Below are positions 1 to 41,143 of a stretch of DNA of 64,000 bases, one piece after another. The first letter of the stretch is position 1; each line of letters opens with the position of its first letter. The stretch lies in the NCBI GenBank assembly GCA_025455005.1, contig JALONH010000002.1:1-64000 (forward strand), written 5' to 3'. The notes beneath the pieces are model-generated. The model was given only the letters and a program-made list of their open reading frames with translations, was not told where the DNA came from and ran no database searches. The translations under genes were made by a program, and so were the position numbers. The stretch comes from Cytophagaceae bacterium (GTDB lineage: Bacteria > Bacteroidota > Bacteroidia > Cytophagales > Cytophagaceae).

Positions 1-2783
1 GATATAGCATTAGGGTTTACTGAATTGATTTTATCACTCTCCATATCAATGGTAACGACAAACTCGCCATCCGCATCGGAATAAGAAAAGGCTATGACAT
101 CGTCGGTATTATTATAGTTTGGACGACCCAAAGTGGCTAAAGGATTGGTTAACAAATCAGCTGTAACATAAGCTAAATCATTCGTTTCAATATTACATGC
201 CACTACATATAATTCATTATTCAATTCGTCAAAAAGATCAAAGGCTAAAATTTTTGAGGAGTTTTTAGCATACGTTGGATTTCCAATACCAATACCCTTA
301 GGTAAAGAAGAGAATAATTTTATTACTTCACCATTTCCCACTTTTTGTGTAGTGTTATCCCAAACTTTTATAAAATTCACGTCCCAATAAGAAAGGGAAG
401 TACCATCGTTATTTTCAAATTCATTATAACAATCATACACTAAGTATTGCCCGGTATGATCCCATTCAAGAGCATCCGCATAGATTGGTCCTCCTGATTT
501 TACTCCTTCAGTAAATGTGGGATTGTAAAGTTTAAATTGTGTCCACTGGTTTGTTGCAAACTCATAAACAAAAATAGAAGTATCTCGCTCTATACTAGTA
601 GCGGCTATTTTTGTTCCATCTTTTGAAACAGCCACATAACTCCAGAAACCACTGTTGGTTAGTTGACTTAAATTGGTACTTGGGACTGACGTGGCATTAA
701 AGGTTAAAATATTTTTGTTAACGTTTACATAAGCCGCAACTTTACCATTATCACTTACGGATACTTTATTGTGCGCAGTATTATTCGCTAAAGCAGTAAA
801 AAAAGGATTCCCATTTTCATTAAAACGATATACTACTGCTGGGTATGTTGGAGTTCGAACGGTATTAATAAATATCATTTGTTCCATTCCAGGATTTAAG
901 GGAATGTCATTCAGTACCGTATTTCCATTGCTCCCCCCTCCGGTTGGAATAAATATTTCTACCGTATCAAATGCGGTATTTAATGCTGCTAATATTCCGG
1001 CATTATTGGGATAGATTTCCGTACACGCTTGTACACAAGCTATTCTTAAGTCAATAAAGTTAGAAGATCGTGTCAAATATTCCGTTAAAGCTCTATAGAA
1101 TATTCGAGCTGCTATACTTTTAGAAGAGGATGTGGCAAATAAATAAAAAGCATAATTGGGAATACCGGAATTTATATGCACTCCTCCATTATCAGCTGTC
1201 CCTAAATATTGTTCGCTCACTTTTTTTGGTTGATATCCATTGTCATTTAAACTGGATCCACCATTATGCGGGTCAGACATACTCCTTAAAGCTCCGGATG
1301 GAAAGGCATTGGTGAGTACGACATCTTCCCCTATGAGCCAATCTAAAGAATCAATCATACAACCAAAGATATCGGCCATTGATTCATTGATAGCGCCGGA
1401 TTCAAAACTGTACCTTAAATTAGCTGAGTTTTGAATAACTCCATGCGTGAGTTCGTGTCCGGCTACATCTAAACCACCGGCCAATGGTTTAAATGCGGTG
1501 TTCCCATTTCCATAAAATATGGCTTGTCCATTCCAAAAAGCATTATCCATGCTTTGTCCACTATTGGGATCGGATACATTAACAAAGGAAACGATAGTTC
1601 CACCTTGATTATTAATAGAATTTCTACCATGAACCGTATAAAAATATTCGTACGCTTTTGCAGCGTTATAATGAGCAGATACTGCAGTGGGGTTGTTCCA
1701 ACTTGTTGTATTAGATGTTATAAACGAATAATTAGTACCATTCCCAAAGGTATTGTTTAGATTATAGGTAGTAATAGCCCCCAAAGGGTTTTGAGGTAAT
1801 ACAGAACCTGAAGGTGTATACATGTTTCGGGAGATATCCAATAGATAATGCGTACTCCCTTTTAAATACGTTTGAATCGTTCGGGTTTGATTATTTAAAT
1901 CTAAACCAGTACCGATAGTTGGTCCGTCGATAGAACAAATGTTATTTACGCGCTCTATTATTTGGCCGTTATATCCATTGATATAGATAGTTGTCCATTC
2001 AGCAAAATGGCGTCTTACATCCATTTTATAACATAAAGTAGGCGTGGATACAATACTGGTATGGGGTTGTAGGATTACTTTCGATACTGTTATAGGGAGG
2101 AAAGGATGCGAGGTGGGTAAGTCTTGATATGAGTAGGCGTACGATTGAAGTGTTTCTAAACTTACCTGAATGGCTTCCTCTTCAGAAATAGTATAAGTAG
2201 TCGAAATGGAAGTTGGAATATAATGTCCAGTCCAATTTGTTACGTTTTTATTTTTATCGATATGTATTATTGAAACACCATCTTCCATTTTTATTTGATT
2301 ATGGTACTGTTGAAACAATACTTTACAACCGCCCATTGGATCTACTTGAATAGATTCCATCTTCCACTGTTGGACAAATAGGTAAGAGGTAACATTGAAA
2401 TATTTACTTATTTCTTCTAAACTGAAATAAGCGAGTGTTGAAACACTTTCCTCATGAAGGCTTTTTATTGTTGGACTAATATTTTTTAATGGTTGCTGGA
2501 TAAATATGGGTAAACTATTTATTTTATCTCGAACAATAGAGGGAGTCGATCGAGATAGTTGTAGTTTTTGGCGTGAGGCTCCTTGAAAAGAAGGAGCGCT
2601 TATAAAAGGTATGGTAGCAGTTTTAGATTGTATTAAGGTAGATGAAATTGTATTTACACTTCCGGATGTAGATTTTAACTTTCCACTTCTTTCATATAGT
2701 GTTTGAGATGCGGCAGAGAAGAAAATACTATAGAAGAGAAAGAATAAAAGTGTATTAAGAGATGAGTTGATATAACGTTTCAT
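1..2783 (-). CDS. Secreted M4 (thermolysin-like) metallopeptidase, C-terminus cut by window edge
   Basis: Zinc endopeptidase of the thermolysin family, open to the window start, so at least 927 residues. The ATG at 2783 gives a signal peptide (MKRYINSSLNTLLFFLFY, then SAASQ). HELTH lies at residues 443-447 (bases 1443-1457) and the third zinc ligand Glu467 in NESMAD, the HEXXH-19-E spacing of M4. The N-terminal part resembles an FTP/PepSY propeptide. From about residue 620 there are repeats of the FWSYVAVSKDGTKIAAT type, suggesting a TolB/PD40-like beta-propeller behind the protease. The start overlaps the upstream small gene by 29 bases, so translation is probably coupled. A T9SS sorting domain may lie past the edge but cannot be seen. 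Confidence 0.93.
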   Translation of the reverse strand, partial: MKRYINSSLNTLLFFLFYSIFFSAASQTLYERSGKLKSTSGSVNTISSTLIQSKTATIPFISAPSFQGASRQKLQLSRSTPSIVRDKINSLPIFIQQPLKNISPTIKSLHEESVSTLAYFSLEEISKYFNVTSYLFVQQWKMESIQVDPMGGCKVLFQQYHNQIKMEDGVSIIHIDKNKNVTNWTGHYIPTSISTTYTISEEEAIQVSLETLQSYAYSYQDLPTSHPFLPITVSKVILQPHTSIVSTPTLCYKMDVRRHFAEWTTIYINGYNGQIIERVNNICSIDGPTIGTGLDLNNQTRTIQTYLKGSTHYLLDISRNMYTPSGSVLPQNPLGAITTYNLNNTFGNGTNYSFITSNTTSWNNPTAVSAHYNAAKAYEYFYTVHGRNSINNQGGTIVSFVNVSDPNSGQSMDNAFWNGQAIFYGNGNTAFKPLAGGLDVAGHELTHGVIQNSANLRYSFESGAINESMADIFGCMIDSLDWLIGEDVVLTNAFPSGALRSMSDPHNGGSSLNDNGYQPKKVSEQYLGTADNGGVHINSGIPNYAFYLFATSSSKSIAARIFYRALTEYLTRSSNFIDLRIACVQACTEIYPNNAGILAALNTAFDTVEIFIPTGGGSNGNTVLNDIPLNPGMEQMIFINTVRTPTYPAVVYRFNENGNPFFTALANNTAHNKVSVSDNGKVAAYVNVNKNILTFNATSVPSTNLSQLTNSGFWSYVAVSKDGTKIAATSIERDTSIFVYEFATNQWTQFKLYNPTFTEGVKSGGPIYADALEWDHTGQYLVYDCYNEFENNDGTSLSYWDVNFIKVWDNTTQKVGNGEVIKLFSSLPKGIGIGNPTYAKNSSKILAFDLFDELNNELYVVACNIETNDLAYVTADLLTNPLATLGRPNYNNTDDVIAFSYSDADGEFVVTIDMESDKINSVNPNAI

Positions 2784-3198
2784 AAAATTCGGTTAATACG
2801 GTAGTATTAGTAGTAGTATAGTTCCAAATGTACGTTGTGTTATGGTTAGACCGTTCCATGCGGATGAAGTAATATGTGTTCCCAGGTTCATCCAATGTTT
2901 TTAACGTCTTTTCAATAAAATAGAACGTATTAAAAAGGCTTTTTCGGGTTGATTTGTTTATTTTTTTTATCCATACAATGGAATCGATAGCATGTTGAGT
3001 TGGTATTAATTTGTATAAATGCCCTTTCTCGCTGATTACCCATTGCTGGATGGTGCCACTAAAACCTCCTCCATTGCCAAAATACAAGTGTTTTTGGGTA
3101 TAATCTAGTTTAGATTTTGGTTTCCCTTTTCCCATAACCATAGAAGAGGTCCCAATTAGAATAATGAAGCAAATCAGTGTAGAAAAGAGGGTTTTCAT
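2755..3198 (-). CDS. Small secreted protein of unknown function (147 aa)
   Basis: I do not recognise a named family. It has a hydrophobic N-terminal signal (MKTLFSTLICFIILIGTSS) followed by a basic stretch and the motif FGNGGGFSGTI, a glycine-rich pattern I associate with small uncharacterised secreted Bacteroidota proteins. The remainder is mixed alpha/beta, rich in Asn, Thr and Tyr near the C-terminus. Its ATG overlaps the ispE stop by 4 bases (ATGA), and its 3' end overlaps the start of the M4 peptidase gene. It is therefore probably co-transcribed with both. A link to the peptidase, for example as inhibitor or chaperone, is only a guess from position. Confidence 0.75.
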   Translation of the reverse strand: MKTLFSTLICFIILIGTSSMVMGKGKPKSKLDYTQKHLYFGNGGGFSGTIQQWVISEKGHLYKLIPTQHAIDSIVWIKKINKSTRKSLFNTFYFIEKTLKTLDEPGNTYYFIRMERSNHNTTYIWNYTTTNTTVLTEFYETLYQLIS

Positions 3199-4010
3199 AA
3201 TTTAGAGGAGAAGATAGTATAAGTATTTTTCCAAACTTGAGGAAACTCCGGTAAATGCTCGAATAGTCCAAACATACAAGAGCCGGATCCACTCATTGCT
3301 ACATAGACAGCATTCATAGAATACAATTCTTGTTTTATCGTTTCGAGTATGGGGTGTTGTACAAATATACTTTGTTCAAAATCATTTTTTACATTCCATT
3401 TCCATTCGTTTATAGGCATTTGTAAAACTTCTGCTAAGGGTTGGTTCGGTTGCTTAGGAGTCACACCGGCATAGGCTTCCGGAGTAGATATGTGGATGTT
3501 AGGATAGATCAGTACAATCGAATAGTTGGAAAAATCAGGGAAAGTGAAAGGTTGAAATTCATCTCCTTTTCCATAACCCAAGATGGCTTTGTTATGGATA
3601 AAAAAAGCACAATCACTACCTAATGGGCGAGCAATTGCTTCCATCGTAGGAAGGTCTAATTCTAAATGAAATAGCTGGTTTAAAGCTTTAATTGTAAACG
3701 CAGCATCGGAAGAACCACCGCCTAAACCCGCACCAATAGGTATTGCTTTATGCAAATGTATGGAGACATTAGGAATACCATAGGTATTTTGTAAGATGGC
3801 ATGTGCTCGAAGGCAAAGGTTAGTTTCCGATTTTCCAGGAATAGGAATTCCAGTAGATTGAAAAGAAGTTGGTGCATCTGTTGGGATGATTTCTAACGCA
3901 TCTTTCCATGGAACTGGAACAAATGCAGTCTCTATCGAATGATAACCATCCGGTCGTTTTGTTGTGATATTAAGGCCAATATTAATTTTGGCATTGGGAT
4001 ACAAAATCAT
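3195..4010 (-). CDS. ispE: 4-diphosphocytidyl-2-C-methyl-D-erythritol kinase
   Basis: GHMP kinase that phosphorylates CDP-methylerythritol in the non-mevalonate isoprenoid pathway; cytoplasmic. The N-terminal PNAKINIGLNI block and the ATP-binding loop PIGAGLGGGSSDAA (about residues 91-104) are diagnostic, and the C-terminal VAMSGSGSCMFGLF is the GHMP motif 3. Length (271 aa) is normal for Bacteroidota IspE. I chose the ATG at 4010 rather than the TTG one codon upstream. It is divergent from the sugar transferase gene with only 47 bases between starts, so the two promoters must overlap or abut. Confidence 0.96.
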   Translation of the reverse strand: MILYPNAKINIGLNITTKRPDGYHSIETAFVPVPWKDALEIIPTDAPTSFQSTGIPIPGKSETNLCLRAHAILQNTYGIPNVSIHLHKAIPIGAGLGGGSSDAAFTIKALNQLFHLELDLPTMEAIARPLGSDCAFFIHNKAILGYGKGDEFQPFTFPDFSNYSIVLIYPNIHISTPEAYAGVTPKQPNQPLAEVLQMPINEWKWNVKNDFEQSIFVQHPILETIKQELYSMNAVYVAMSGSGSCMFGLFEHLPEFPQVWKNTYTIFSSKL

Positions 4011-4057
4011 CAAAATAAAATTGAAATATTATACAATTTATGGTATTTTGATGACAA

Positions 4058-4642
4058 ATGAAATATGGTAATTATATTAAGCCATTCATGGATTTTGTTA
4101 TTGCATGGTTTTTGCTGTTAATAAGCCTACCGGTGATGCTTTGTATCAGTATTATTTTATACCTCACATGGAGAAAATTTTTATATGTTTCTATACGAGG
4201 TGGAAGAAATGAAATGCCTTTTCGTTGTTACAAATTTATAACCATGAATCCTGCATATGACACTTCAACTCCTGAGAAGGATCGATTAAATGGGTTTACT
4301 AGAATACTTCGATTAAGTTCGTTGGATGAATTACCTCAACTTTGGAATGTGATACGTGGAGATATGAGTTTAGTTGGCCCAAGGCCCTTACCAATTGAAT
4401 ACACTTATAAGTATAGTTTGGAACAAAGAAAAAGATTTTCCGTAAAACCAGGTATCACGGGTTGGGCTCAAGTAAATGGTCGCAACTCCATAACCTGGGA
4501 GGAGAAATTTAAATTAGATATTGAGTATGTCAATCAACTGTCTTGTTTAATAGATATCAAAATATTATATAAAACCCTTTGGACTGTTTTCGATTCATCA
4601 AAGGTGAATGCAAATAAAAATATATCAATGAAACCTTTTTAA
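4058..4642 (+). CDS. Membrane sugar-phosphate transferase (PglC/WcaJ-type)
   Basis: Bacterial sugar transferase of the monotopic phosphoglycosyltransferase family, which moves a sugar phosphate from a UDP-sugar to undecaprenyl phosphate at the inner membrane. An N-terminal hydrophobic hairpin (about residues 8-37) precedes the catalytic core, with the Asp-Glu dyad in SSLDELPQLWNVIRGD, then SLVGPRPL and KPGITGWAQVNGRN. At 194 aa it is the short PglC-like form without the extra transmembrane domain of WbaP/WcaJ. The usual KFRTM block reads KFITM here, so the Arg is replaced by Ile. It starts an apparent operon with the pglD- and pglE-like genes. Confidence 0.9.
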   Translation: MKYGNYIKPFMDFVIAWFLLLISLPVMLCISIILYLTWRKFLYVSIRGGRNEMPFRCYKFITMNPAYDTSTPEKDRLNGFTRILRLSSLDELPQLWNVIRGDMSLVGPRPLPIEYTYKYSLEQRKRFSVKPGITGWAQVNGRNSITWEEKFKLDIEYVNQLSCLIDIKILYKTLWTVFDSSKVNANKNISMKPF

Positions 4643-4657
4643 ACCGTAATTATAGAT

Positions 4658-5263
4658 ATGTTATTGTATGGTGCCAGTGGACATGCTCAAGTAGTGAAAG
4701 ATGCCATTCAAACTTCAGGGGAGTCCGTAAATGCTATTTTTGATGATAATCCTGATTTAATCAAATTAGACGATACACCCGTAATAGGCTTGTATAAATC
4801 AGATTATGAATCCAATCAGAAAATCATTATTTCTATTGGTGATAATTTGATTCGAAAAAAAGTAGTATCAAAAGTAAAACATGGATTTGGTATTGCAATC
4901 CATGCTTCTGCTATAGTTTCCAAATATGCAACAATAGACGAAGGTACTGTAGTGTTACCGGGAGCGGTGGTCAATGCCGGATCATCGATAGGGAAACATT
5001 GTATTGTTAATACCAATGCGGTTATAGAACACGATTGTGAATTACAAGACTACATTCACATCTCTCCTAATGTGACCCTTTGTGCCAATATATTTATAGG
5101 AGAAGGGACTCATATTGGTGCGGGAGCAACTATTATTCCCGGAAGAAGTATAGGGAAATGGTGTGTGATTGGAGCCGGTTCAGTTATTACTCAAGATATA
5201 CCTGATTTTTCTATGGTTGTAGGGGTTCCGGGTAAAATTATTAGAACATTGATAAAAAGTTGA
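4658..5263 (+). CDS. PglD/NeuD-type sugar N- or O-acetyltransferase
   Basis: Left-handed beta-helix acetyltransferase of the NeuD/PglD family. The N-terminal Rossmann-like part (LLYGASGHAQVVKDAI, residues 2-17) binds the nucleotide sugar, and the C-terminal hexapeptide-repeat region (about residues 85-190) binds acetyl-CoA. The likely catalytic His is in NAVIEHDCEL (about residue 126). The gene lies 15 bases after the PglC-like transferase and 1 base before the aminotransferase. This order suggests acetylation of a 4-amino-4,6-dideoxy sugar, as in diacetylbacillosamine synthesis. The exact substrate cannot be read from sequence. Confidence 0.9.
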   Translation: MLLYGASGHAQVVKDAIQTSGESVNAIFDDNPDLIKLDDTPVIGLYKSDYESNQKIIISIGDNLIRKKVVSKVKHGFGIAIHASAIVSKYATIDEGTVVLPGAVVNAGSSIGKHCIVNTNAVIEHDCELQDYIHISPNVTLCANIFIGEGTHIGAGATIIPGRSIGKWCVIGAGSVITQDIPDFSMVVGVPGKIIRTLIKS

Positions 5264-5264
5264 T

Positions 5265-6383
5265 ATGTATGAAGTATACCTTTCGCCTCCATATCAAGGA
5301 GGGAATGAATCGTTATACGTTCAACAAGCGTTAGATTCTAATTGGATCGCTCCCTACGGACCATTTGTTGATCGATTTTCAGAGGCACTATCCCAATCTT
5401 TTGGTGGTGCCTCACTTATTTTAACCAACTCCGGCACGTCGGCCTTGCATTTAGCGCTAATAGGAGCCGGTATAGCAGAAGGAGATGTAGTATTATGTTC
5501 AACCGCAACCTTTGCCGGTGGTGCATTTCCCATTCGATATGTAAATGCCATCCCTTGTTTTATCGACTCAATCGGTTTAACACCCACCATTGATACTGAA
5601 TTATTACTGGAAGCTATTCATTGGCACCAACAAAACGGTAAAAATGTAAAAGCCTTAATTGTGGCACATTTATATGGATTTTATTCTAATTTGAATAAAG
5701 TAAAAGAGATTTGTGCCCGTTATTCCATTGCTTTAATAGAAGACGCAGCGGAGTCAATGGGGTCAATACAAAATGAAAGCCCTATTGGAATAGATGGGGA
5801 TTTTACCGTTTTATCTTTTAATGGAAATAAAATCATAACTGCAGGGGGATGTGGTGGAGCATTACTGATTAAGAACCCCGAACTATATCCGGTATTAAAA
5901 AAAATCGCTAATCAAGCTAATGAAAAGCCGGGTGATTATTGGCATGAAAAGGTAGGGTATAACTATCGTTTAAGTAATGTGAATGCGGCATTTGGATTGG
6001 CACAATGGGAGCAACTTTCTCAAAAAGTAGAACGAAAGCGTCAAATTCGAACTTGGTATAGACAATATTTACCTGAAAGCATTTCAATACTATTACCTGA
6101 AAACGCCACCGAAAAGGATAGTGCATGGTTAACTATTGCCTATTTCCCGAAGGTAAAGGATACTGAAAATATAAAGGAGTACTTAAAGAATGAAAAAATA
6201 GAGTCAAGAAAACCTTGGCGGCCGATGCACCTGCAGCCGGTTTTTTCGAATATTAAACATTTTGTGAAAGGTTCTGCTGAATTGCTGTATCAAAAGGGCT
6301 TGTGTTTACCTTCTGGAATCAATATGACAGAGGAATTAGTAAAAAGGATTAGTGAAAAAATAGTTATATTTATAAATACATAG
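5265..6383 (+). CDS. DegT/DnrJ/EryC1-type sugar aminotransferase (PglE-like)
   Basis: PLP-dependent nucleotide-sugar aminotransferase. The aldimine lysine is Lys189 in SFNGNKIITAGGCGG. The PLP phosphate site NSGTSALHLAL (about residues 55-65) and EDAAESMGS (about 159-167) are typical. It would aminate a UDP-4-keto-6-deoxy sugar before the neighbouring PglD-like enzyme acetylates it. Length of 372 aa is normal. The ATG follows the previous stop by one base, so translation is probably coupled. No 4,6-dehydratase (PglF) lies nearby, so that step must be encoded elsewhere if the pathway is complete. Confidence 0.92.
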   Translation: MYEVYLSPPYQGGNESLYVQQALDSNWIAPYGPFVDRFSEALSQSFGGASLILTNSGTSALHLALIGAGIAEGDVVLCSTATFAGGAFPIRYVNAIPCFIDSIGLTPTIDTELLLEAIHWHQQNGKNVKALIVAHLYGFYSNLNKVKEICARYSIALIEDAAESMGSIQNESPIGIDGDFTVLSFNGNKIITAGGCGGALLIKNPELYPVLKKIANQANEKPGDYWHEKVGYNYRLSNVNAAFGLAQWEQLSQKVERKRQIRTWYRQYLPESISILLPENATEKDSAWLTIAYFPKVKDTENIKEYLKNEKIESRKPWRPMHLQPVFSNIKHFVKGSAELLYQKGLCLPSGINMTEELVKRISEKIVIFINT

Positions 6384-6408
6384 TGTTTATAATTTTAGAG
6401 GAATTTGT

Positions 6409-9400
6409 ATGAAAAAGTTGTACTGTTTATATATACTTATTTCGTCTTTTTGTATTTCAATTTCTAATGCTCAAGATACAAAATACGAAGCCACTTTTTT
6501 AAAAATCGAAAAGTATTACGAAAAGGGAGATTACCTTTTAGGTCTTCGATATAACAGAGATGTTTTAAAGAAAATTCAATCGGATAAACAACACGATCTA
6601 CTCACAGAAGCTAGAGCGTATTTTTTGTTAGCTGAGGGGTATGAGTTAAATGGAGCATTTACAGAATATGAATTAAATATGGGTTTAGGGAATCAGTCTT
6701 TAGTTAAAGCACCTAAAACGGATACTTATCAATATTCTAAGTGCGTTTTACATGCTATTGATACCTATATATCTTATGGTAACTATTACGAAGCCTCTAA
6801 ATATATTGAACAAGTTGATTTGTTAATTCAAACGTCAGGTTTTAAAAACGATGATATTATATATGATTTAAAAACCAGAAAACTGTATTGTTACTTTAAA
6901 CAAGGCTTTCATATTAAGGCGCAACAACTAATGCCGGAGCTTTTAAACTACAGAAAAAGTAGAATAGTAAATAAGGACAAACAAATCGATCCTAAAACTG
7001 GAAAAGAGAAATGGGTGACTCTTTCGTCCAGTCAAATCATTTTAAGAAAACGCAACTATGCTAAATTATTAAATCTTCAATCAGAGATTTTTTTTGAGAA
7101 TGGAAATTATAAGAGTACAGATTCATTAGTTGAAGTGACCTATGATTGGATTAAAAAGAATCTAAGTTCCAAAGACGTTACGTATGTAGATAATAGAGTG
7201 ATAGCCGGTAAATTAGCGAATGACAGAGGCGATATAAAATTAGCTAATAAATTCTTCCAAGAAGCTTACAAAGGCTTATTGTCTTCTAAATATAAAACAT
7301 ATAGTAGAGAAGCCATTGAAGTATACTCCTTATTGATACCTACCTATAAAGTTACAAGTCAGTCGATTGATTATAGAAAAAAGAAACGCGTTTTAGATGC
7401 TAAGATAACTCGTTATTATGGATCCAATCACTATTACACCAGTAAAGTAGAATTAGTAGAAATAGATACAGAAATACTTCAAGGGGAATGGGATAAGGTA
7501 ATTAAAGACATTAATAAAGTGTTAACTAAAGCTAATGTCATTCCGATGATACACCTAGATCGAGCTCGGTTGTTGGATATTTTAAATGTCGCGTATATAG
7601 AAACTGAACAATATGATTTAGCTGAACAAGCGTTAGAGAACTCTACTATCATTAAGGAACGATTACTGGGAGGGCAGTCACCAATATTTCATATGCAGCT
7701 TTTGGATAAAGCAAATTATTATTTCTTATATACAGATAAGGTAAAAGAAGCCGAAGATATTTATGTCCAAAGTTTTGATAGTATAATCCGAAATGAAATG
7801 TATAAAGGACATAAAAAAGTTATACAATATCAATTATCAGAAGTGACATTGTTTGAATTGACAGATCGATTTGATAAATCTAAACAAATTTTAAAGTCAC
7901 TCGAGCAAACAATAGCAGAGTTGTACGGAACCGAGTCAATACCTTACGCTATTGTGGAAAGATACTCAGCCAATTTAGATATTTCCTCTGGTAGATACAT
8001 AGATGCTGATGTGAAATTAAATAAATCACTCGCTATTTTTAAAAAGTTGGCAACACCGGCCGATAATGAAGAATATGCTAAGGTATTAGAAACGCAAGCT
8101 CGTTTATATATTATTCAAGGTTTATATAGAGAAGCAGAAAAAGATTTATCCAAAGCATTTAAGCTAGCCAAAAAAGGTAGTTCTGTATCTAAATTATCCG
8201 CCACTATAGATGAAATTGCTATATTATATATTCACTTAGGGCGCTTTTCAGAAACAGAAAAGAGTCTATTGTCTTCTATAGAAGTCAAAGAGAAAAGATT
8301 TGGCGTTAGCAGTAGAAGTTTAATTCAACCTTTATCTCAAATAGCTTATTTGTATTATTTAACCGGAGATTATTCTAGAGCAGAAAAGTATGCAGTACGG
8401 TCTATGAATATCAGTAAACAAATATTCGGTGAAAATTCTATAAAATATGCAGAATGTTTAAAGGTCTTAGTAAATGTAAAAACCGCCATGGGGGACTATA
8501 CTTCAGCTCAACGTGGAATACAAGTCGTTATAGATAACTATAAAAAACAATATGGTGAAAATCACATTAGCGTCGCTACTTCATTGAATGAACTAGCATT
8601 AATAAAGTATTATAATAATGGAGATAAAAATCAAGTAGAAGGTTTATTTAAACAGTCCTTACAAATTATTAAAAACAATCTGAATGATAATAACCCGATA
8701 TATGCAGATGTATTAAAAAATATCTCATTGTTTTATTTGGAAACAAACAAGTTACAAGAAGCTGATGTAAGTTTAGAAGCAGCTAATAAAATTTGGGTAT
8801 CTAAATTTGGAACATCTGATCGACATGCAGCCGATTATGATTATTTAAAAGGTATGATTTTGTATAGAAGTAATAAATATTCTGAAGCCAATACGTACTT
8901 TATAAAGTCAAAAAATATTTATGCCGCTACATTTTCCTCTAAACATCCGGATTATATAAAGGCTCTAGCAAAGAGTGGACAAATGTATTATATAATTAAG
9001 GATTATGACAATAGTATAAAGTCCTATGATGAGGTTATTTTGTCTTATTTTGAATTTATAAACAAACAATTTACAGCATTAAGTGAGCGTGAAAAATCTA
9101 AATCTTGGAATATAATAAAAAACGATTTTGAGTTTTATTACACCCTCGTTTATAAGCTAGGGGCTCAACGTCCGGAATTGGTAGGTAATATGCTCAATAT
9201 GCTAATGTCTACTAAAGCTATTTTATTAAATTCCTCTATTAAAATTAGAGAACGTATCCTTAATAGTGGTGATGAAAAACTAAAAGATACGTATATACAA
9301 TGGACTACTAAGAAGGAGTTGTTGACGACTGCAATTTCCATGGATGCAGAGCAATTACAAGCGAATAATATTAACTTGGATCAATTACAAAAAGATATCG

Positions 9401-10659
9401 AAACACTAGAAAAATCACTGAGCGAATCTTCCGAATTGTTTTCACAAGCATATGAGTCAACTCTCAGGTATGATTGGAAGCAATTGAAAACCTCTCTTTC
9501 GGCTAAAGAAGTTGCTGTAGAAATTATTCGGTATAGATATTTTTCTAATAAATTTACAGACAGTATTATATATTCAGCACTTGTTGTAACGAAAGACTCT
9601 AAAAGTGCTCCGGATATTGTTCATTTTACAAACGGGAAACAAATGGAAACCCGTTACTTAAAATATTATCGTAATGCCATAAAATTTAATATTGACGATG
9701 TTAATACCTTTGATAGGTATTGGGCTTCTATTTCCACAATTATACCTTCAGGAACAGCGAGAATATATGTGGCTCCGGATGGGGTATATAATCAGTTGAA
9801 CTTAGAAACAATTAAACGTCCGGATGGTAAATACTTATTACAACAATATCAGTTTGTTCAAATAGCCAATACAAAAGATATACTTTTAGATTATAATCAA
9901 AAACAAAAAGCTATTATTGGAACCAAAAAAACAGTGGATCAAATTGCTTTGTTTGGCAATCCTGATTTTTATTATTCAGTTTCCTCTACGATAGATTCTA
10001 ATTTTACGAAACAATGGGGAGATTTATTAGGTGCAGAAAATGAAGTGAAAAACATTTATACTTTATTAACCAATCAAAGAGTAGCTTGTCAACTTTATTT
10101 AAATAGTAAGGCAACAGAAGACAAGTTGAAAGCTCTCCAAAATCCTAAGTTTTTACATATAGCTACGCACGGTTATTTCCTTGCAGATGTAAAGCAAACG
10201 GAATATGAATCGGAATTAACCAGTGAAGTGCTTTCTAATCCATTATACCGATCCGGTGTTGTGTTAACCAATGGGGGTGTTGTATTGGGAAAAAATGATA
10301 TTTCTCAAATCAATTCTATGGATGGGGTTTTAACCGCTTATGAAGCGATGAATTTAAACTTAGATAATACAGATGTTGTTATTTTAAGTGCCTGTGAAAC
10401 CGGATTAGGCGATGTTCAATCCGGAGAGGGTGTTTATGGTTTGCAACGATCTTTTATTGTAGCCGGGGCACAGAATGTAATCATGAGTTTGTTTAAAGTA
10501 GACGATGATGTTACGCAAGAGCTTATGAATAAATTTTATGAAAATTGGTTGACAACAAAAGACAAACGGTTAGCCTTTATTGAAGCTAAAAAATTCATTT
10601 ACGACAAGTATAAAAATCCGCTCTATTGGGGAGCTTTTGTGATGATAGGTCTCGATTAA
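6409..10659 (+). CDS. Secreted TPR-CHAT protein (caspase-like protease fold), 1416 aa
   Basis: Large exported protein: signal peptide (residues 1-21, ending SISNAQ), then many TPR repeats over about residues 25-930 (kinesin-light-chain-like 42-residue spacing is clear around 600-830), a helical linker, and a CHAT domain over about 1050-1416. The likely catalytic dyad is His1254 in HIATHGYF and Cys1329 in LSACETGLGD, both with the normal surroundings, so the protease site looks intact. CHAT proteins belong to the caspase/separase clan C50-like fold. The substrate is unknown. It follows the pglE-like gene by 25 bases and precedes a strong terminator, so it may be the last gene of the sugar operon. 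Confidence 0.9.
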   Translation: MKKLYCLYILISSFCISISNAQDTKYEATFLKIEKYYEKGDYLLGLRYNRDVLKKIQSDKQHDLLTEARAYFLLAEGYELNGAFTEYELNMGLGNQSLVKAPKTDTYQYSKCVLHAIDTYISYGNYYEASKYIEQVDLLIQTSGFKNDDIIYDLKTRKLYCYFKQGFHIKAQQLMPELLNYRKSRIVNKDKQIDPKTGKEKWVTLSSSQIILRKRNYAKLLNLQSEIFFENGNYKSTDSLVEVTYDWIKKNLSSKDVTYVDNRVIAGKLANDRGDIKLANKFFQEAYKGLLSSKYKTYSREAIEVYSLLIPTYKVTSQSIDYRKKKRVLDAKITRYYGSNHYYTSKVELVEIDTEILQGEWDKVIKDINKVLTKANVIPMIHLDRARLLDILNVAYIETEQYDLAEQALENSTIIKERLLGGQSPIFHMQLLDKANYYFLYTDKVKEAEDIYVQSFDSIIRNEMYKGHKKVIQYQLSEVTLFELTDRFDKSKQILKSLEQTIAELYGTESIPYAIVERYSANLDISSGRYIDADVKLNKSLAIFKKLATPADNEEYAKVLETQARLYIIQGLYREAEKDLSKAFKLAKKGSSVSKLSATIDEIAILYIHLGRFSETEKSLLSSIEVKEKRFGVSSRSLIQPLSQIAYLYYLTGDYSRAEKYAVRSMNISKQIFGENSIKYAECLKVLVNVKTAMGDYTSAQRGIQVVIDNYKKQYGENHISVATSLNELALIKYYNNGDKNQVEGLFKQSLQIIKNNLNDNNPIYADVLKNISLFYLETNKLQEADVSLEAANKIWVSKFGTSDRHAADYDYLKGMILYRSNKYSEANTYFIKSKNIYAATFSSKHPDYIKALAKSGQMYYIIKDYDNSIKSYDEVILSYFEFINKQFTALSEREKSKSWNIIKNDFEFYYTLVYKLGAQRPELVGNMLNMLMSTKAILLNSSIKIRERILNSGDEKLKDTYIQWTTKKELLTTAISMDAEQLQANNINLDQLQKDIETLEKSLSESSELFSQAYESTLRYDWKQLKTSLSAKEVAVEIIRYRYFSNKFTDSIIYSALVVTKDSKSAPDIVHFTNGKQMETRYLKYYRNAIKFNIDDVNTFDRYWASISTIIPSGTARIYVAPDGVYNQLNLETIKRPDGKYLLQQYQFVQIANTKDILLDYNQKQKAIIGTKKTVDQIALFGNPDFYYSVSSTIDSNFTKQWGDLLGAENEVKNIYTLLTNQRVACQLYLNSKATEDKLKALQNPKFLHIATHGYFLADVKQTEYESELTSEVLSNPLYRSGVVLTNGGVVLGKNDISQINSMDGVLTAYEAMNLNLDNTDVVILSACETGLGDVQSGEGVYGLQRSFIVAGAQNVIMSLFKVDDDVTQELMNKFYENWLTTKDKRLAFIEAKKFIYDKYKNPLYWGAFVMIGLD

Positions 10660-10675
10660 TAAATGGTATCATAAT

Positions 10676-10709
10676 AAAAAAACCTCTTAATATGTTAAGA
10701 GGTTTTTTT
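10676..10709. terminator. Bidirectional intrinsic terminator between the TPR-CHAT gene and icd
   Basis: A perfect 15-bp stem with a 4-base loop TATG (arms 10676-10690 and 10695-10709). The core is AACCTCTTAA, with an A-run on the left and a T-run on the right. It lies between two convergent genes and can serve both. Confidence 0.9.
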
Positions 10710-10728
10710 ATTATCGTTTTTCAAACTT

Positions 10729-29077: not shown

Positions 29078-32000
29078 ATGCTTAAACGTATATTACTGCT
29101 CTTTTCTTTAATCGTACTGGCTCGATATGCCGGTGCTCAAAATTTCCAGATTTCCGGTGGAAATAGTTTTTCTGCTGCTGTTTGTGATAATCAAACAGTA
29201 TACACTTGGGGGTCAAATGTTGATAATGATGGTACCACTTTATTATATACTTTTGGTGTAAATAGTTCGGGTGTTGCTATTACTACACCAAGAAGAACTA
29301 CAGGTGTAGCCATCACGCATGGAAATATCAATAATACTGCAGGTGGAACTACAGTTGGACCCTTACCCGCTATCCGACAGATAGACGCAGGTTCAGGATC
29401 GCATTTGTTAGGATTAAGTTGTGCGAACCAAGTTTGGGGATGGGGTAATAACAGATCTGGCCAATTAGGTCGCAATTCTACCTCTGCATCAGGAGAACCT
29501 ATGCCTCAACGTGTTCTTAGAGGTGCCCAAGCTGCAGCTGTTTCTGTTAATGATCCAAATGGTATTTTTTTAAATAATATCACCTATGTTTCAGGTGGTA
29601 ACAATTCTTCTTTTGCAATAGAAGCTGGCACAGGACGTTTATTAGCTTGGGGAGAAAATGGAGACGGACAATTAGGAGATGGTACTACTACAGACAGAAC
29701 TACTCCGGTTTATGTTACGAGAAGTGCGGCTGAAGGTGGAGGACAATTAACAAATATAGTACAAGTAGAAGCGGGGGATCAATGTACCTATGCATTAGAT
29801 GCCAATGGATTTGTTTGGTCATGGGGTAACAATACAGGCAATAAACTTGGAAGACCAGGTGCAAGTCCTCAAACGGGCGCAGGAAGAGTAGTACGCTCTA
29901 ATCCATTATGTAATGGGTATGGGTGTCCAGGTGATGGTCTTTTAAGAAATATAACTCAAATATCTGGTGGTGATACACATTGTTTGGCATTAGATGCTAC
30001 AGGAAACGTATGGTCTTTTGGTGGTGACTGGGGAGAAGGGCAATTAGGTAGAGGCGGTGGATCTGTTTATCAAGATTATGCTTCACGAGTAGTTCGCCCA
30101 GGATTAACTTCTTATGGAACAGTAGCTGCAGATTTTTTGGGAAGTAGTACAGACGGTAGAGCCATTTACGTTTCAGCCGGTCAGGCTTCTTCTGCTGTCG
30201 TAATGGCAAATGGTAAGGTAGTGACATTTGGAGGTAGAGGTTTATTCAACCTTGGTCCTACAAATACAAACTCAGGTACTATAACTTGTCCTGGGCCTGA
30301 TGGTGATATGATTGCTTCAGGAACTTTAGGAGACAATAATACAACAGGATGTAATTCTACTAGTTGTTCAAATAAAGCTACACAATGGTCTAGAACACCG
30401 GTGTATGTTCAAACAGGTGGAGTTGATTTAACCGGCATTTCTGCAGTCTCAGATGGAGATGGTTGGTATTTTGCGATATCAACAACAGGTTCAGCCTTTG
30501 CGTGGGGCTGGAATAGAAGAGGAGAATTAGGGGTTGGGGATTATTCTGATAGATGTCAAGCAGTTCCCTTTACTTTACCTACCGGTTGTGGTACTTTCAC
30601 AGATCCTTGTCCTAAACAACCTAGGTTAGGGGCAGACTTTACCTCATGTCCTGTATTTTCAACTTCATTAAACTCTCAAGTTGCTCAAGAATATTCGTCT
30701 TGGAGATTTACATGGGAATATAGACCTGTTGGTTCAACTGGTGCTTGGACAACTTTAGCTGGTCCAGCTGCAAATATTCCAACTCAAACAGCGAATACCC
30801 TAGGTCAATATAGAATTTCTATGTCTGATAATAGAACATATGTATCAGCATTTTGTGGTCCTTGTCCAGTATTAAGAGATACTATTGTGATAACTGAAGT
30901 AGCGAATCCATATACAGTATCAGCTTGTAGCGATAACCCGGCTTCTTTAGCACAGTTTAATGTCACTAATCCTCCGGCTTCTCAGATTAAATGGTATACG
31001 AATGCAACCGGGGGAACGGCATTGAATCCTGCTAATACGAATCCAACCATTACTACAGCATTTTCGAACACAAATACAACGATTCCGGGATGTACTAGAG
31101 CATTATTTGCAGAAGATGTTTCGAGTGTAGTAGGGGCATTGTTTCCAGGAACAACGCAAGCTCAAGCTCAAACTGCAACTAGTTGTGCTACATTCACGAA
31201 CGAATGGATTACTGGGCCTGTATCTAGGTCTTTAATGATGTTTCAAGTAACTAGAACATTAACTATTAATCAAGCCAGTATCATTGCAGGAGGTAATGGT
31301 GGAGGTGTAAATGCTACTGTAACAATTTACAATAACAACCCTACCGGAGGTCCATATTGTGGTGGATGTACACCTGCTGCCAATACTAATGGACCTAACA
31401 CATCTTCAATTGTAGGTACAGGTACATTAACTGGTTTAACGGTTACGGACGGTCAAGTACTTCAAGTCCCAATGAGTGTTATTCTAACTCCTGGTATATA
31501 TTGGATTGGTGGAACATTAACAGGTGTGCAAACGAAATATTATAATTGTACAAGACCTGTAACGAATGGAACAAAGAGCCTTTGGACCACTCAAACTAAT
31601 GACAATTCAGGTCAAACAATATTGATAGCTCAATATGGATTATATGATAATAATCCAGGAAGCGTTGGAGATGTCTTTAATATTTCTTTCTCGGCTGGTA
31701 CTGGTTATACTTGTGGTAGAATTTTAGTTTGTGTTTCTTCTGCCTGTACATTACCGGTTACATATGTTAATTTCTCTGCCAGCAACAATGGTAATTATAA
31801 TACAGTGAATTGGGTTACATCATCGGAAAAAAATGCTGCTTATTTTGTAATTGAACGTTCCTCCGATGGTCTTAACTATGCGGCAGTTGGAAAAGTAAAT
31901 GCTGTAGGTAACTCTAGTTCTATTCAATCCTACGAGTATAAAGATTTGAATCCTCTATTCGGTGCTACTTACTATCGATTGTTACAGATTGACACAGATG

Positions 32001-32281
32001 GTTCTGGGGTGTATTCAGAGCCGGTATACCTAAACAATAGTGGTAAATCATACTTATCTATAGCACCTAACCCTTCAAACGGTAAATTCTCTATAGTAGG
32101 AACGTTTTCTGAAACCAATTACGTCTATGAAGTGATAACGACTACTGGACAAGTGGTAGCAACTGGCAAGTTCGACGGAGCTGCTGCTCAATTAGACTTA
32201 AGCGGTCTTGCAAAAGGGGTATACATAATATCCATTAATAGTGGTGAATCTACACAATCCACTCGTTTGGTTATTGAATAA
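29078..32281 (+). CDS. T9SS-exported RCC1-repeat (beta-propeller) surface protein (1067 aa)
   Basis: Signal peptide (residues 1-20, ending YAGAQ), then about seven RCC1-type blades over residues about 40-510, each with the W-G-x-N-xxG-QLG pattern (GWGNNRSGQLGRNS, AWGENGDGQLGDGT, SWGNNTGNKLGR, FGGDWGEGQLGR, AWGWNRRGELGVGD). A middle region of Ig-like character with an IKWYTNATGGTALNP block follows, then a LPVTYVNFSA Fn3-like module and a C-terminal type A sorting domain (SIAPNPSNGKFSI, about residues 988-1067). RCC1 propellers mediate protein or carbohydrate contacts, and the ligand is unknown. Transcribed alone and followed by a terminator. Confidence 0.92.
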   Translation: MLKRILLLFSLIVLARYAGAQNFQISGGNSFSAAVCDNQTVYTWGSNVDNDGTTLLYTFGVNSSGVAITTPRRTTGVAITHGNINNTAGGTTVGPLPAIRQIDAGSGSHLLGLSCANQVWGWGNNRSGQLGRNSTSASGEPMPQRVLRGAQAAAVSVNDPNGIFLNNITYVSGGNNSSFAIEAGTGRLLAWGENGDGQLGDGTTTDRTTPVYVTRSAAEGGGQLTNIVQVEAGDQCTYALDANGFVWSWGNNTGNKLGRPGASPQTGAGRVVRSNPLCNGYGCPGDGLLRNITQISGGDTHCLALDATGNVWSFGGDWGEGQLGRGGGSVYQDYASRVVRPGLTSYGTVAADFLGSSTDGRAIYVSAGQASSAVVMANGKVVTFGGRGLFNLGPTNTNSGTITCPGPDGDMIASGTLGDNNTTGCNSTSCSNKATQWSRTPVYVQTGGVDLTGISAVSDGDGWYFAISTTGSAFAWGWNRRGELGVGDYSDRCQAVPFTLPTGCGTFTDPCPKQPRLGADFTSCPVFSTSLNSQVAQEYSSWRFTWEYRPVGSTGAWTTLAGPAANIPTQTANTLGQYRISMSDNRTYVSAFCGPCPVLRDTIVITEVANPYTVSACSDNPASLAQFNVTNPPASQIKWYTNATGGTALNPANTNPTITTAFSNTNTTIPGCTRALFAEDVSSVVGALFPGTTQAQAQTATSCATFTNEWITGPVSRSLMMFQVTRTLTINQASIIAGGNGGGVNATVTIYNNNPTGGPYCGGCTPAANTNGPNTSSIVGTGTLTGLTVTDGQVLQVPMSVILTPGIYWIGGTLTGVQTKYYNCTRPVTNGTKSLWTTQTNDNSGQTILIAQYGLYDNNPGSVGDVFNISFSAGTGYTCGRILVCVSSACTLPVTYVNFSASNNGNYNTVNWVTSSEKNAAYFVIERSSDGLNYAAVGKVNAVGNSSSIQSYEYKDLNPLFGATYYRLLQIDTDGSGVYSEPVYLNNSGKSYLSIAPNPSNGKFSIVGTFSETNYVYEVITTTGQVVATGKFDGAAAQLDLSGLAKGVYIISINSGESTQSTRLVIE

Positions 32282-32311
32282 ATTAATAAATAAATAATCT
32301 TAGTACTTCTG

Positions 32312-32348
32312 ATAGGCAATGTTTTAAACGACATTGCCTATTTTATTT
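32312..32348 (+). terminator. Intrinsic terminator after the RCC1 gene
   Basis: An 11-bp perfect stem (ATAGGCAATGT / ACATTGCCTAT) with an 8-base loop, followed by TTTATTT. It separates the RCC1 gene from the cellulose-type operon that starts at 32497. Confidence 0.85.
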
Positions 32349-32496
32349 ATTGGAAAAATGCAATTTCTTCCTCCGTGGATATAAATAAACACAATTTTTT
32401 ATCGAATATTACTTAAAAAGTAGTATCCTTGTAAGATTATTTGGGCTAGAATAATTATAAAATTATTGTTTCACATCAATCCATTCTTTACAAAAC

Positions 32497-34701
32497 ATGC
32501 GAATTAGGATTTTTACCTTCTTCCTTATTTTGAATTGCGGGGGAATAACATTTGTAACAAAAGCATCGAATGATAGTGCTCGAGTTACAAATTACACTCC
32601 GGTAGTTACGAAAGTGAAGCGTACGTCTTCACCCGGTTTATCTACCTATGTGTCCTCCCTTTCTTACGAGGAAGATGACAGCAAAAAAGAAGCATACAAA
32701 CGATGGACCGGTCTTAAGTATTCCGGATACATTCGTTCGTATAACCAGTATCGTTGGATGCCCAATCGATATGCCAACTCTCCGGCTGCAGAACAGTTAC
32801 TGACTGTTAACGGATTAGATATTGTTAATGGGGTATACACTGGTTATCAAGAACCTTTGTTGTTGCTTCGATTAGAAGGTGCCCCAACGGCTAAGACTTG
32901 GTTTCAAATGGAGTATATGTTCGATAACCAAATGATGGGTATTATTGGAATGGAAGGAACCAATAATCAGTCGGGTATCTCACAAACGAATAACCGTAGA
33001 GCCTTAGCCTATCGTATTTTCCAATTTAAAGGATATGCGAATACGAAAGTAGGGGACTTTACTTTAATCGCAGGTGGTGGGGTAAACTGGTATCGATTGT
33101 CTCCTTTTACTTTGTGGAACTATGAGTATCGGGACGACTTGTTTGAGCGTTACCCATGGCAGCCGGAAGGAAACTCTTTTGGAATGTACAACCGCTTTTA
33201 TAATGAAAAAAATATAGCGAGGGATGCTCGCTGGGGAAATACAGGTACACAAGGTTTTATTATTAACGGTAAAAATTTACCTAAAGGTTTCGGCTTTAGC
33301 TTAATCATGGGTAAAACAGATAATTCCGGTGGTTTTCAAACCTATTTAACTCGAACACCTAAAAATGTAATTGCTTTCCGAATAGATAAATCGATTGGTG
33401 TGCATAAATTTGGATTCAATGTTTTTGACCAATTTGGAACTTATAACAACTTAGGATTTGTTTTGGATCCTACTTCACCAGGAACTTACTATGGAGCTAA
33501 ATTAAGACAACAGATTGTAACGGTAGATGCTAAATTGAATTTTAAAGATGTTAAAGTCTATACAGAATTAGGTATCGGTCGTTTTCAAGATGGATTAATT
33601 ACTAACCGCGATTTTGAATTATTGTTTGGAAGACCTCAATCTTCAAACGATACAGTTTTGTTTGTTGGTCCAGGTATACCAGCCATCAACCATAATTGGG
33701 ATAAACCGTTAGAAGCTCATTGTTTTAACTTACAATTAGATTTTTCTAAACAAGCAATAGGCTTCCCTCTTCAACTACAAGTATTTTCTGTTCGCAAGTC
33801 GGTTGCTAACGTGAATTCACAAAGTTTAAATACAGCAAACAACCATACTGTCTCTACACCAACCAACATCAACACAGTAAATGATATAACTGTGTTTACT
33901 GGTGCTATAACTGATATAGGCCAGATGGCAAATAACCGTTGGGGTACTAATATCAAACATGAAGATACCTATGGTAAACTTAAAGTAATGGGTGCTTGGG
34001 GCTTTAATAAAGAATGGGAAAATCTAGATACAGACGGCAAAGTAGATCCTACAAATGCTTTATCCAACGGTGTTTCTTATTGGCATCAAGCTAATCCATT
34101 TACCCGTTCCCGCTTTGCTTACTTCCAACGTTTAACTGGCCCTTATCAACGTGTTACCAGTATATTTAGACGTACATATGAGACCTATGCCATTACGGAT
34201 ACCGTTATTGACTACTTAAAAATGTATCAAACGTTAAATATGGCCTTATCATATAAATTGAAATTGTTCGGTAAAGACTTAATTGTCACTAATTTTAATA
34301 CGTACAACTCCGTCACAGACGATAATTTCAATCCTATTCCTGTTTTTACGGATAAAGCGTTTATTCGGACGTTTTACGAAGAGTTTATGGCATTTTATAG
34401 TATTCATTCAAAAGTTACATTAGTTGGTTTCGCCTCCTATGAGCGCGTACTTGGTAACCGTAGAGTAGAATTAGCCGATGCAAACGGCGAGAAACTTCTG
34501 GATGTTTCGGATCCGGCCTATGCTACCGGGAAAACCGTTAATCAAACAGGTTACGGATTAGGATTTGGAATTGATTATGATTTCTCCGGAAGAGCTGGTT
34601 TATATTTAAGAAACCGCACTTTCTATCATAAAGATGCCAACTTTACCAAAGATTATTTCAGAGGTAATGAAACTACAGTTGAATTAAAAATATTTTTCTA
34701 A
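32497..34701 (+). CDS. Outer-membrane beta-barrel protein of the cellulose-type locus (734 aa)
   Basis: Not a recognised named family. N-terminal signal sequence (MRIRIFTFFLILNCGG) and a soluble acidic/basic plug-like stretch to about residue 75, then alternating amphipathic strands with aromatic girdles (YIRSYNQYRWMPNRYA, ANTKVGDFTLIAGGGVNWYR, YGLGFGIDYDFSGRAGLYLRN), ending in a terminal Phe (ELKIFF), the outer-membrane barrel signature. It lacks a TonB box or TonB-dependent plug motif, so it is not SusC. It is the first of five closely spaced genes ending in a GH9 cellulase. From memory, Cytophaga hutchinsonii has outer-membrane proteins needed for cellulose growth in a comparable cluster. 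I could not check identity. Confidence 0.85.
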   Translation: MRIRIFTFFLILNCGGITFVTKASNDSARVTNYTPVVTKVKRTSSPGLSTYVSSLSYEEDDSKKEAYKRWTGLKYSGYIRSYNQYRWMPNRYANSPAAEQLLTVNGLDIVNGVYTGYQEPLLLLRLEGAPTAKTWFQMEYMFDNQMMGIIGMEGTNNQSGISQTNNRRALAYRIFQFKGYANTKVGDFTLIAGGGVNWYRLSPFTLWNYEYRDDLFERYPWQPEGNSFGMYNRFYNEKNIARDARWGNTGTQGFIINGKNLPKGFGFSLIMGKTDNSGGFQTYLTRTPKNVIAFRIDKSIGVHKFGFNVFDQFGTYNNLGFVLDPTSPGTYYGAKLRQQIVTVDAKLNFKDVKVYTELGIGRFQDGLITNRDFELLFGRPQSSNDTVLFVGPGIPAINHNWDKPLEAHCFNLQLDFSKQAIGFPLQLQVFSVRKSVANVNSQSLNTANNHTVSTPTNINTVNDITVFTGAITDIGQMANNRWGTNIKHEDTYGKLKVMGAWGFNKEWENLDTDGKVDPTNALSNGVSYWHQANPFTRSRFAYFQRLTGPYQRVTSIFRRTYETYAITDTVIDYLKMYQTLNMALSYKLKLFGKDLIVTNFNTYNSVTDDNFNPIPVFTDKAFIRTFYEEFMAFYSIHSKVTLVGFASYERVLGNRRVELADANGEKLLDVSDPAYATGKTVNQTGYGLGFGIDYDFSGRAGLYLRNRTFYHKDANFTKDYFRGNETTVELKIFF

Positions 34702-34725
34702 CAGAAATTATCACACTTAGTATAG

Positions 34726-36501: not shown

Positions 36502-36518
36502 ATCAAGGAGGATAAACT

Positions 36519-37664
36519 ATGAAAAAAAGTTTATGGTTAATAGGACTCGTCCTATTCATCTCTTGGTCTTGTAAAAGAGACTATGAAGATAAAGGTTTTA
36601 TAGGAACACCTTTTATTTCGGCAAGTGAAAACTTTCAGATTACGAGTCCATTGAGTGTAGCATTTCCTACAACTGTTAATTTTGCTAATGCAGAGATTCA
36701 AGAATTTAATGCTTCATTTAATGAGAAAGTTACTTGGGAATTACAGTTAACAGGTATAAAATCAGGTGCTACTTTTTTAATGAAAGGAACATCTGATGCG
36801 TTAGATGCTTCTAACGCTAGTTGGAATGGAAGGCATGACGGAATATATTTCTTCGAATCAAATGATTCTGTTGTAGCTTCATTAAAAGTAATTGGATATA
36901 AGGATATATTAACTACTTCTTTTAAAATTGCTCCCAATGGACAAAAGAATTACACGACAGGTAATCCTAATTTATCTTACATTTTAAGAACTAATTTTGA
37001 GTTAATTGCTCCAGCAAATGCACCGATAAACGACCAAAATATAAATCTTTTTCCAACACAATTTTCAATATCGCCTCCAGGTATTATAACTGGTTCCGTT
37101 TTGCAAAATGATGAAATTAGAGCCCCTGAAGGGTTTAGATTTGGGAGAGTTGCTGGATTGTCTACAGCCTCTAATGGTTTTTTTGTTGGTGGTATTCAGC
37201 ATAGAAGACCCAATGCCAATTTATCGTCATTTTATATAAACTGGACTGATCCTGAACAGGTTTATGTAAATATATATGTTAGAGGTGTTGATAATATGCT
37301 TCCCAACAGTCGGCCTGTAGCTGTATTAAATTTTGAGTTTCATGAAGATGATAGGGATGATAGGGTATGTGGAACTATCCCTTCTACACCCAATGATAGA
37401 CATTGTCCAACAGATGAGGATTCTTGGGTATTTAGAATACCTATTTCTCACACAGGTTGGAAATTATTTAGCAATAAATATTCTAATTTAACTCCTGGGG
37501 AAGATGCAGCTAATGGTGGAAGTGGTAATAGAATATTACAACCGGATAGGATTTTCCGTGTTCAAATGGGTTTGATTTCTAACCCACCATTTAATTACGT
37601 TCAAGCAGAATTTGATTTTGCTTGTTTTACTCTAGGTGCGCCATTTGATCCTAAAACATTTTAA
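36519..37664 (+). CDS. Lipoprotein of the cellulose-type locus (381 aa)
   Basis: N-terminal lipoprotein signal with the Cys in LFISWSCKRDYEDK; the acidic residues after the Cys resemble the export signal that sends Bacteroidota lipoproteins to the cell surface. The rest is beta-rich, consistent with Ig-like or jelly-roll modules (SFNEKVTWELQL, KVIGYKDILTTSFKI), and ends in a Cys-containing region (CGTIPSTPNDRHCPTDED). No SusD helices or TPR. I do not recognise a family. It starts 17 bases after the second barrel gene and is probably a surface polysaccharide-binding partner of the barrels. Confidence 0.8.
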   Translation: MKKSLWLIGLVLFISWSCKRDYEDKGFIGTPFISASENFQITSPLSVAFPTTVNFANAEIQEFNASFNEKVTWELQLTGIKSGATFLMKGTSDALDASNASWNGRHDGIYFFESNDSVVASLKVIGYKDILTTSFKIAPNGQKNYTTGNPNLSYILRTNFELIAPANAPINDQNINLFPTQFSISPPGIITGSVLQNDEIRAPEGFRFGRVAGLSTASNGFFVGGIQHRRPNANLSSFYINWTDPEQVYVNIYVRGVDNMLPNSRPVAVLNFEFHEDDRDDRVCGTIPSTPNDRHCPTDEDSWVFRIPISHTGWKLFSNKYSNLTPGEDAANGGSGNRILQPDRIFRVQMGLISNPPFNYVQAEFDFACFTLGAPFDPKTF

Positions 37665-37676
37665 TTAACTAGAAAA

Positions 37677-39314: not shown

Positions 39315-39318
39315 CACG

Positions 39319-41082: not shown

Positions 41083-41104
41083 GATTTAGTTCTCATAGAA
41101 TTTA

Positions 41105-41143
41105 ATACAAAAGGGAGGTTTTAATCTCCCTTTTGTATTTTTT
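41105..41143 (+). terminator. Intrinsic terminator at the end of the cellulose-type operon
   Basis: A perfect 13-bp stem (ATACAAAAGGGAG / CTCCCTTTTGTAT) with an 8-base loop, followed by a run of T. It lies 22 bases after the GH9 stop. Confidence 0.88.

Follow-up and report, generated by a model that had tools for sequence, protein, structure and literature searches.

Exported TPR-CHAT proteins of Cytophagaceae: a separase-like candidate peptidase behind pgl-type sugar genes and its paralogs beside type IX secretion cargo

Introduction

What would a giant exported protein with a caspase-type catalytic dyad do directly behind a set of sugar genes? The question is raised by a 64,000-nucleotide stretch of DNA from a Cytophagaceae bacterium (assembly GCA_025455005.1, contig JALONH010000002.1, positions 1 to 64,000; hereafter the window), which is contig C7 of a 2.94-Mb genome (G000) and encodes a TPR-CHAT protein of 1,416 aa at 6409..10659 (+). 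An earlier note on this DNA had presented the protein as an unusual, exported CHAT protease that might act on, or with, glycosylated surface proteins. Computational analysis of the protein, its relatives and their gene neighbourhoods led to a best reading in which a separase-type peptidase works in the periplasm, is switched on by a partner and assists the assembly of surface proteins; it is put forward tentatively here.

Domain architecture and catalytic dyad

The focal gene begins with ATG and is a single open reading frame (ORF). Its product matched the CHAT family (PF12770) with 192.4 bits against a gathering cut-off of 24, and the Pfam scan also gave four TPR_12 stretches ahead of CHAT and a match to TPR_10. 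The catalytic residues are His1254 in the motif HIATHG (codon 10168..10170, +) and Cys1329 in the motif SACETG (codon 10393..10395, +), and the aligned CHATs carry His at the first position in 159 of 161 cases and Cys at the second in 160 of 161. Such near-constancy among relatives favours enzymatic use of the dyad. The deviating rows are a truncated one and one from a metagenome-assembled genome with Asn for His; the latter is the CHAT ortholog of genome G007 (L047:3902-8125, HIATNGFF) and could be a sequence error. Most of the 19 family genomes contain a full-length ortholog of ~1,400 aa (34-55% identity, 15 aligned), and conservation climbs toward the C-terminus, from 0.46 for residues 23-200 to 0.72 for residues 1240-1416.

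A sequence-profile search of solved structures found no CHAT relative, so that fold comparison was needed. The AlphaFold2 model of residues 217-1416 (mean pLDDT 81.6, pTM 0.72) displays a TPR-like solenoid of ~16 helical hairpins at residues 217-890 (7057..9078, +; pLDDT mostly 85-96), in line with the TPR_12 and TPR_10 matches, and the solenoid helices extend N-terminally beyond the modelled residues. The top Foldseek match of this 1,200-residue model was human separase. The model of residues 877-1416 (pLDDT 88.1, pTM 0.89) matched Csx29 with a Z score of 24.8 over 407 residues (root-mean-square deviation 4.0), followed by separases (Z 17-19.5), DdvA (Z 19.4) and the gingipain RgpB (Z 16.8). 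Csx29 and separase align along the full length of this model, which contains a pseudo-caspase half (CHAT1-like, residues ~1034-1167, 9508..9909, +; boundary predicted) and an active caspase half (CHAT2-like, residues ~1175-1416, 9931..10656, +), and it is to the active half alone that SAVED-CHAT (Z 18.2) and MALT1 (Z 13.1) align. The protease part of Csx29 pairs a pseudo-caspase with an active caspase (PMC10028731), and the modelled focal protein can be read the same way, as a TPR solenoid followed by a pseudo-caspase half and then an active-caspase half.

Csx29, the TPR-CHAT protein of the type III-E CRISPR system (Craspase), thus has in common with the focal protein the TPR solenoid, the order of the pseudo- and active caspase halves and the His-Cys dyad. 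At ~750 aa, it is about half the length of the focal protein, which differs further in its signal peptide and in the absence of Cas genes from its neighbourhood. Separase likewise joins a long helical solenoid to a pseudo-caspase and a caspase, at a sequence identity of 9-14% to the focal protein. It is a eukaryotic, intracellular enzyme that is held by securin and has cohesin as its substrate. DdvA, a solved bacterial membrane protein (8rot, 8rw5), matches the focal protease half with its residues 649-991 (Z 19.0-19.4) and differs in being, according to the entry title, an anti-sigma factor with a transmembrane part. The cyanobacterial HetF also combines CHAT and TPR and is membrane-associated, but its order, an N-terminal CHAT followed by a transmembrane segment and then TPR (PMC8406250), is the reverse of that in the focal protein, where TPR comes first and CHAT is C-terminal.

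Export of CHAT proteins

The focal N-terminus, MKKLYCLYILISSFCISISNA followed by QD, contains a KK n-region, a hydrophobic core and a small-X-small site, and no lipobox was found in it on reading the sequence. It appears to be a typical Sec signal of residues M1-A21 (6409..6471, +), for which our own rule-based scoring predicted a cut between A21 and Q22. Applied to related CHATs, this strict rule was passed by at least 134 of 152 ORFs and by none of the 33 IspE/Pgl controls. The set of 152 remained after three BioF-like matches of 371-384 aa had been removed by hand from 155, and the CHAT profile retains one BioF-like seed. Several of the 18 failures, ending in FAQ, HAQ or SQAQ, are signal peptides that the rule missed. 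The window genome holds six CHATs, two of which (C12 and C20) fail the rule; by eye, all six N-termini read as signal peptides, with an uncertain start for C12. Export, as predicted from these N-termini, is the norm for CHATs in the focal family and order, and the earlier idea of an exported CHAT as an exception was not borne out, at least in this phylum.

The signal peptide also bears on the proposal that the focal protein is a defence or cell-death caspase, as has been put forward for cytoplasmic conflict-system CHATs and Craspase. Csx29, to which such a role would appeal, is the closest solved fold and acts bound to Cas7-11 under activation by RNA (PMC10028731). Against this stand the signal peptide itself and conservation like that of a housekeeping gene, with an ortholog in most family genomes. 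Moreover, no CRISPR, STAND, TIR or nuclease partner was found among the genes scanned around the focal CHAT, and Cas7-11 (gRAMP) was not seen among the neighbours scanned in the window (ispE, the pgl genes, icd and an M16 peptidase gene). A defence function is therefore considered very improbable.

CHAT paralogs beside type IX secretion genes

Probably the strongest lead of the analysis comes from the paralogs. In the window genome, C1 and C12 are each the third gene of a triad, behind a type B C-terminal domain (CTD) protein, which is cargo of the type IX secretion system (T9SS), and a PorP/SprF gene. In both triads TIGR04131 (cargo) and PF11751 exceeded their cut-offs, as did TIGR03519 for C1. 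These triads lie at L060:2123-11888 and L063:3674-10498 and are repeated in relatives. Counted with PorP, Pgl and IspE profiles over the 76 family CHAT ORFs whose start could be read, PorP/SprF lay directly upstream in 20, preceded by type B cargo in 17 of the 20; of the 37 giant family CHATs, 18 were PorP-linked, and 17 of these 18 had the type B cargo gene as well. Because the PorP-linked giants occupy two separate parts of the CHAT tree, the PorP-CHAT pairing seems to have arisen, or to have been kept, more than once. The window genome possesses a T9SS, with PorU, PorP and a PorK-to-N-like cluster; its PorU sortase lies at C2:275356-278697 (T9SS_sortase, NF033707), and the same gingipain-type PorU family gave no match at the focal CHAT gene. 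Among 149 genomes of the class, no PorP-CHAT pair was found outside the window genome in the short flanks of 30 loci, so that the triad of type B cargo, PorP and CHAT may be limited to the Cytophagaceae.

In Flavobacterium johnsoniae, the order is a type B substrate, an SprF-like shuttle and then PorE, which combines TPR, a propeller and OmpA (PMC12618676, PMC9143113). The TPR-CHAT paralogs are likewise TPR proteins and take this PorE slot, third after type B cargo and PorP/SprF, whereas the focal gene itself lies outside any such triad. This parallel raises an alternative in which the protein is a scaffold: its TPR solenoid would hold outer-membrane complexes in place in the manner of PorE, and its CHAT half would serve folding or regulation with little proteolytic activity. 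It gains from the shared operon position (PMC12618676, PMC9143113) and from the true PorE-type genes that adjoin PorP genes in the same genome. However, the dyad is retained in 159-160 of 161 relatives, whereas some losses would be expected in a pure scaffold. PorE contains a beta-propeller, a carboxypeptidase-regulatory domain and OmpA, and no CHAT (PMC9143113); in the focal protein the Pfam scan detected TPR and CHAT families only, with PD40 propeller, OmpA-like wall-binding and LysM domains absent. On balance, a scaffold with little proteolysis is unlikely.

A third CHAT clade of ~900 aa was located directly behind an exported protein of ~317 aa in 10 of 10 readable upstream genes (L064:7514-11167, L151, L154, L159, L169, L170, L181, L182, L194 and L199). 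The ~317-aa partner carries the motif GQGCSDAGFCTMGAMRPNQ; its copy in the window genome had no Pfam match, and the two copies scanned against NCBIfam had none there. Because it usually ends in an aromatic residue, an outer-membrane barrel is suggested. The theme common to the paralogs would thus be an exported TPR-CHAT behind an outer-membrane protein.

Two further arrangements were observed. A CHAT clade of ~940 aa (L061, L149, L156, L172 and L179), found in four genera, stands beside two long divergent genes of ~1513 and 494 aa that look glutamate-synthase-like by eye, and an FtsJ-like gene follows in the window genome. In three similar clusters of the window genome (L245, L246 and L247), a weak PorP-like gene is divergent from genes of ~190-210 aa, ~363 aa and ~530 aa.

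The pgl-CHAT operon and its conservation

The focal gene itself follows sugar genes. The block is anchored by the divergent ispE (4-diphosphocytidyl-2-C-methyl-D-erythritol kinase; 3195..4013, -; TIGR00154, 175 bits against a cut-off of 138.7), and the 44-base spacer at 4014..4057 is the likely site of the operon promoter, with promoter-like consensus matches on both strands as weak evidence. The first gene behind it, at 4058..4642 (+), encodes a pglC-like monotopic phosphoglycosyl transferase (PF02397, 181 bits), whose nearest solved structures are those of diNAcBac-1-phosphate transferase (8e37/8g1n, E 8e-47). The pglD-like sugar N-acetyltransferase gene at 4658..5263 (+; TIGR03570, 216 bits against 160.8) has PerB (4ea7), PglB (4m98), VioB (7txp) and PglD (3bss) as nearest solved relatives. 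The pglE-like gene at 5265..6383 (+), with its stop at 6381-6383, encodes a DegT/DnrJ/EryC1 sugar aminotransferase (PF01041, 241 bits) nearest to 1o61/4ztc (E 1.7e-81), with no NCBIfam equivalog above its cut-off. PglC, PglD and PglE relatives are all present together in the operon; PglF, which UDP-diNAcBac as the product would require, is not among its genes, and several PF02719-type dehydratases are encoded elsewhere in the genome. The product of the operon is probably an N-acetylated 4-amino sugar.

Only 25 bases (6384..6408, +) separate pglE from CHAT. Behind CHAT, which is convergent with icd, a bidirectional intrinsic terminator at 10671..10714 has a stem of 20 pairs, a T tail on each strand and a fold z-score of -7.2 (0 of 200 shuffles as good). 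CHAT is predicted to close a pglC-pglD-pglE-CHAT transcription unit. With regard to the 1,416-codon ORF, the signal peptide, the two catalytic residues, the 25-base gap, the terminator and the three pgl-like genes directly upstream, the earlier note proved accurate.

That note had also proposed looking for CHAT genes beside pglCDE in related genomes, and the block does recur, with divergent ispE, pglC/D/E and CHAT in 12 genomes of four genera. It takes the form ispE-pglC-pglD-pglE-CHAT in three genomes of genus g3 and ispE-pglD-CHAT in four genomes of genus g4; in genus g10, the g3 order recurs without pglE in three genomes and with it in one. The position of ispE is the same in G002-G008 and G015-G018. 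Close PglD relatives (E <= 1e-30), searched in the 19 family genomes, were found in 13, and in 12 of these the best one lay directly before CHAT, or next but one with pglE between. No close PglD was found in the genomes in which CHAT is unlinked (G010, G011, G013 and G014), and in G001 both genes are absent; pglD and the focal-type CHAT thus appear to travel together within the family.

The main rival reading arises here. It holds that CHAT is a free-standing envelope or stress protease whose place after ispE-pglD was simply retained in one lineage and implies no joint function, and it is possible since CHAT orthologs sit stably in other contexts. In Cyclobacteriaceae/Flammeovirgaceae-type genomes, they are equally stable behind methylmalonyl-CoA mutase genes with dnaA adjoining, a placement that more likely reflects descent than function. 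Both pglC and pglE are missing from the g4 block, and most g10 blocks are without pglE; the gaps of 76-139 bases in those blocks leave room for a separate promoter. Yet the pglD-CHAT pair stays although the genes downstream of CHAT differ in all four genera, and a close pglD without an adjoining CHAT was met in one genome only (G009), at a contig end. Synteny without shared function accordingly deserves serious weight, albeit as a somewhat doubtful explanation.

In the CHAT tree, which was built with a quick method and has some long branches, the pgl-linked rows fall in two clades, and the 12 genomes are hence not 12 independent events. The sugar link seems to be more than chance placement, yet lineage-bound. 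The earlier note had named a transcript break with no conserved neighbourhood as what would make this link coincidental; the conserved neighbourhood removes the second half of that objection, while the dispensability of pglC and pglE and the orthologs of other genera without sugar genes weaken the link. The paralogs, judged by their gene orders, point to T9SS type B surface proteins more directly than to glycosylated proteins.

Proposed function

In the preferred reading, the focal gene product would be a Sec-exported periplasmic cysteine peptidase with the architecture of separase and Csx29. Its TPR solenoid would dock an outer-membrane or cargo protein, and its CHAT half would cut an envelope protein upon binding of the right partner; the likely task is the assembly or control of surface proteins. 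A lipid-linked amino-sugar, made by the pgl enzymes, would go into glycans on those proteins or into lipopolysaccharide. For Cytophaga hutchinsonii, the CTD of the cellulase Cel9A, a T9SS cargo, was reported to be glycosylated in the periplasm (PMC11858162), which provides a context for the sugar operon. What the sequences show is the anatomy of the protein, the conserved dyad, a predicted fold, a conserved neighbourhood and the T9SS linkage of the paralogs; we infer the compartment, the activity, its activation by binding, the substrate and a tie in function to the sugar.

Several observations weigh against this reading. The focal gene is not itself beside PorP or cargo, and G001 is a family genome with T9SS PorP genes and without CHAT. 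The orthologs of other families often stand behind methylmalonyl-CoA mutase genes near a dnaA-like gene, and two family genomes have CHAT beside the dcw cluster (read by eye); given such varied contexts, no one context is essential. The linkages are lineage-bound, their genomes are not independent cases, and the PglD-CHAT pairing may be a mere result of close relatedness.

A wider proposal can be drawn for gliding Bacteroidota, in which a family of exported, separase-like TPR-CHAT peptidases would act in the periplasm together with outer-membrane barrels (PorP/SprF and others), replacing PorE in type B T9SS triads and cutting or licensing surface-protein complexes, with the protease of the focal branch linked to the amino-sugar with which those proteins are decorated. 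In this full form the proposal is speculative and rather doubtful. CHAT proteins, separase-like TPR-CHATs and PorP triads are each already known, and the known functions of CHAT (Craspase, defence systems, HetF) belong to the cytoplasm or the inner membrane. In open-licence full texts, nothing relevant was found on CHAT with T9SS, PorP/SprF, signal peptides or Cytophaga, and no description of exported TPR-CHATs linked to T9SS type B cargo turned up there. CHAT-domain proteins are merely named near type VI secretion genes of Bacteroides fragilis (PMC11854122), and the anchoring of type B proteins has been described as unclear (PMC9143113). If true, a widespread exported, dyad-bearing, separase-like group whose genes recur with T9SS type B cargo and its PorP/SprF shuttle would represent an unrecognised protease class in Bacteroidota surface assembly, and the role of exported TPR-CHATs could be addressed in tractable gliders.

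Other genes in the window

An exported thermolysin-type M4 peptidase gene is encoded at 3-2783 (-), and this gene, together with the small gene after it, is also kept beside ispE in G002-G004. Farther along, positions 29078-42121 hold a run of exported proteins that comprises an RCC1-repeat T9SS cargo, several orphans without a Pfam match and a GH9 cellulase.

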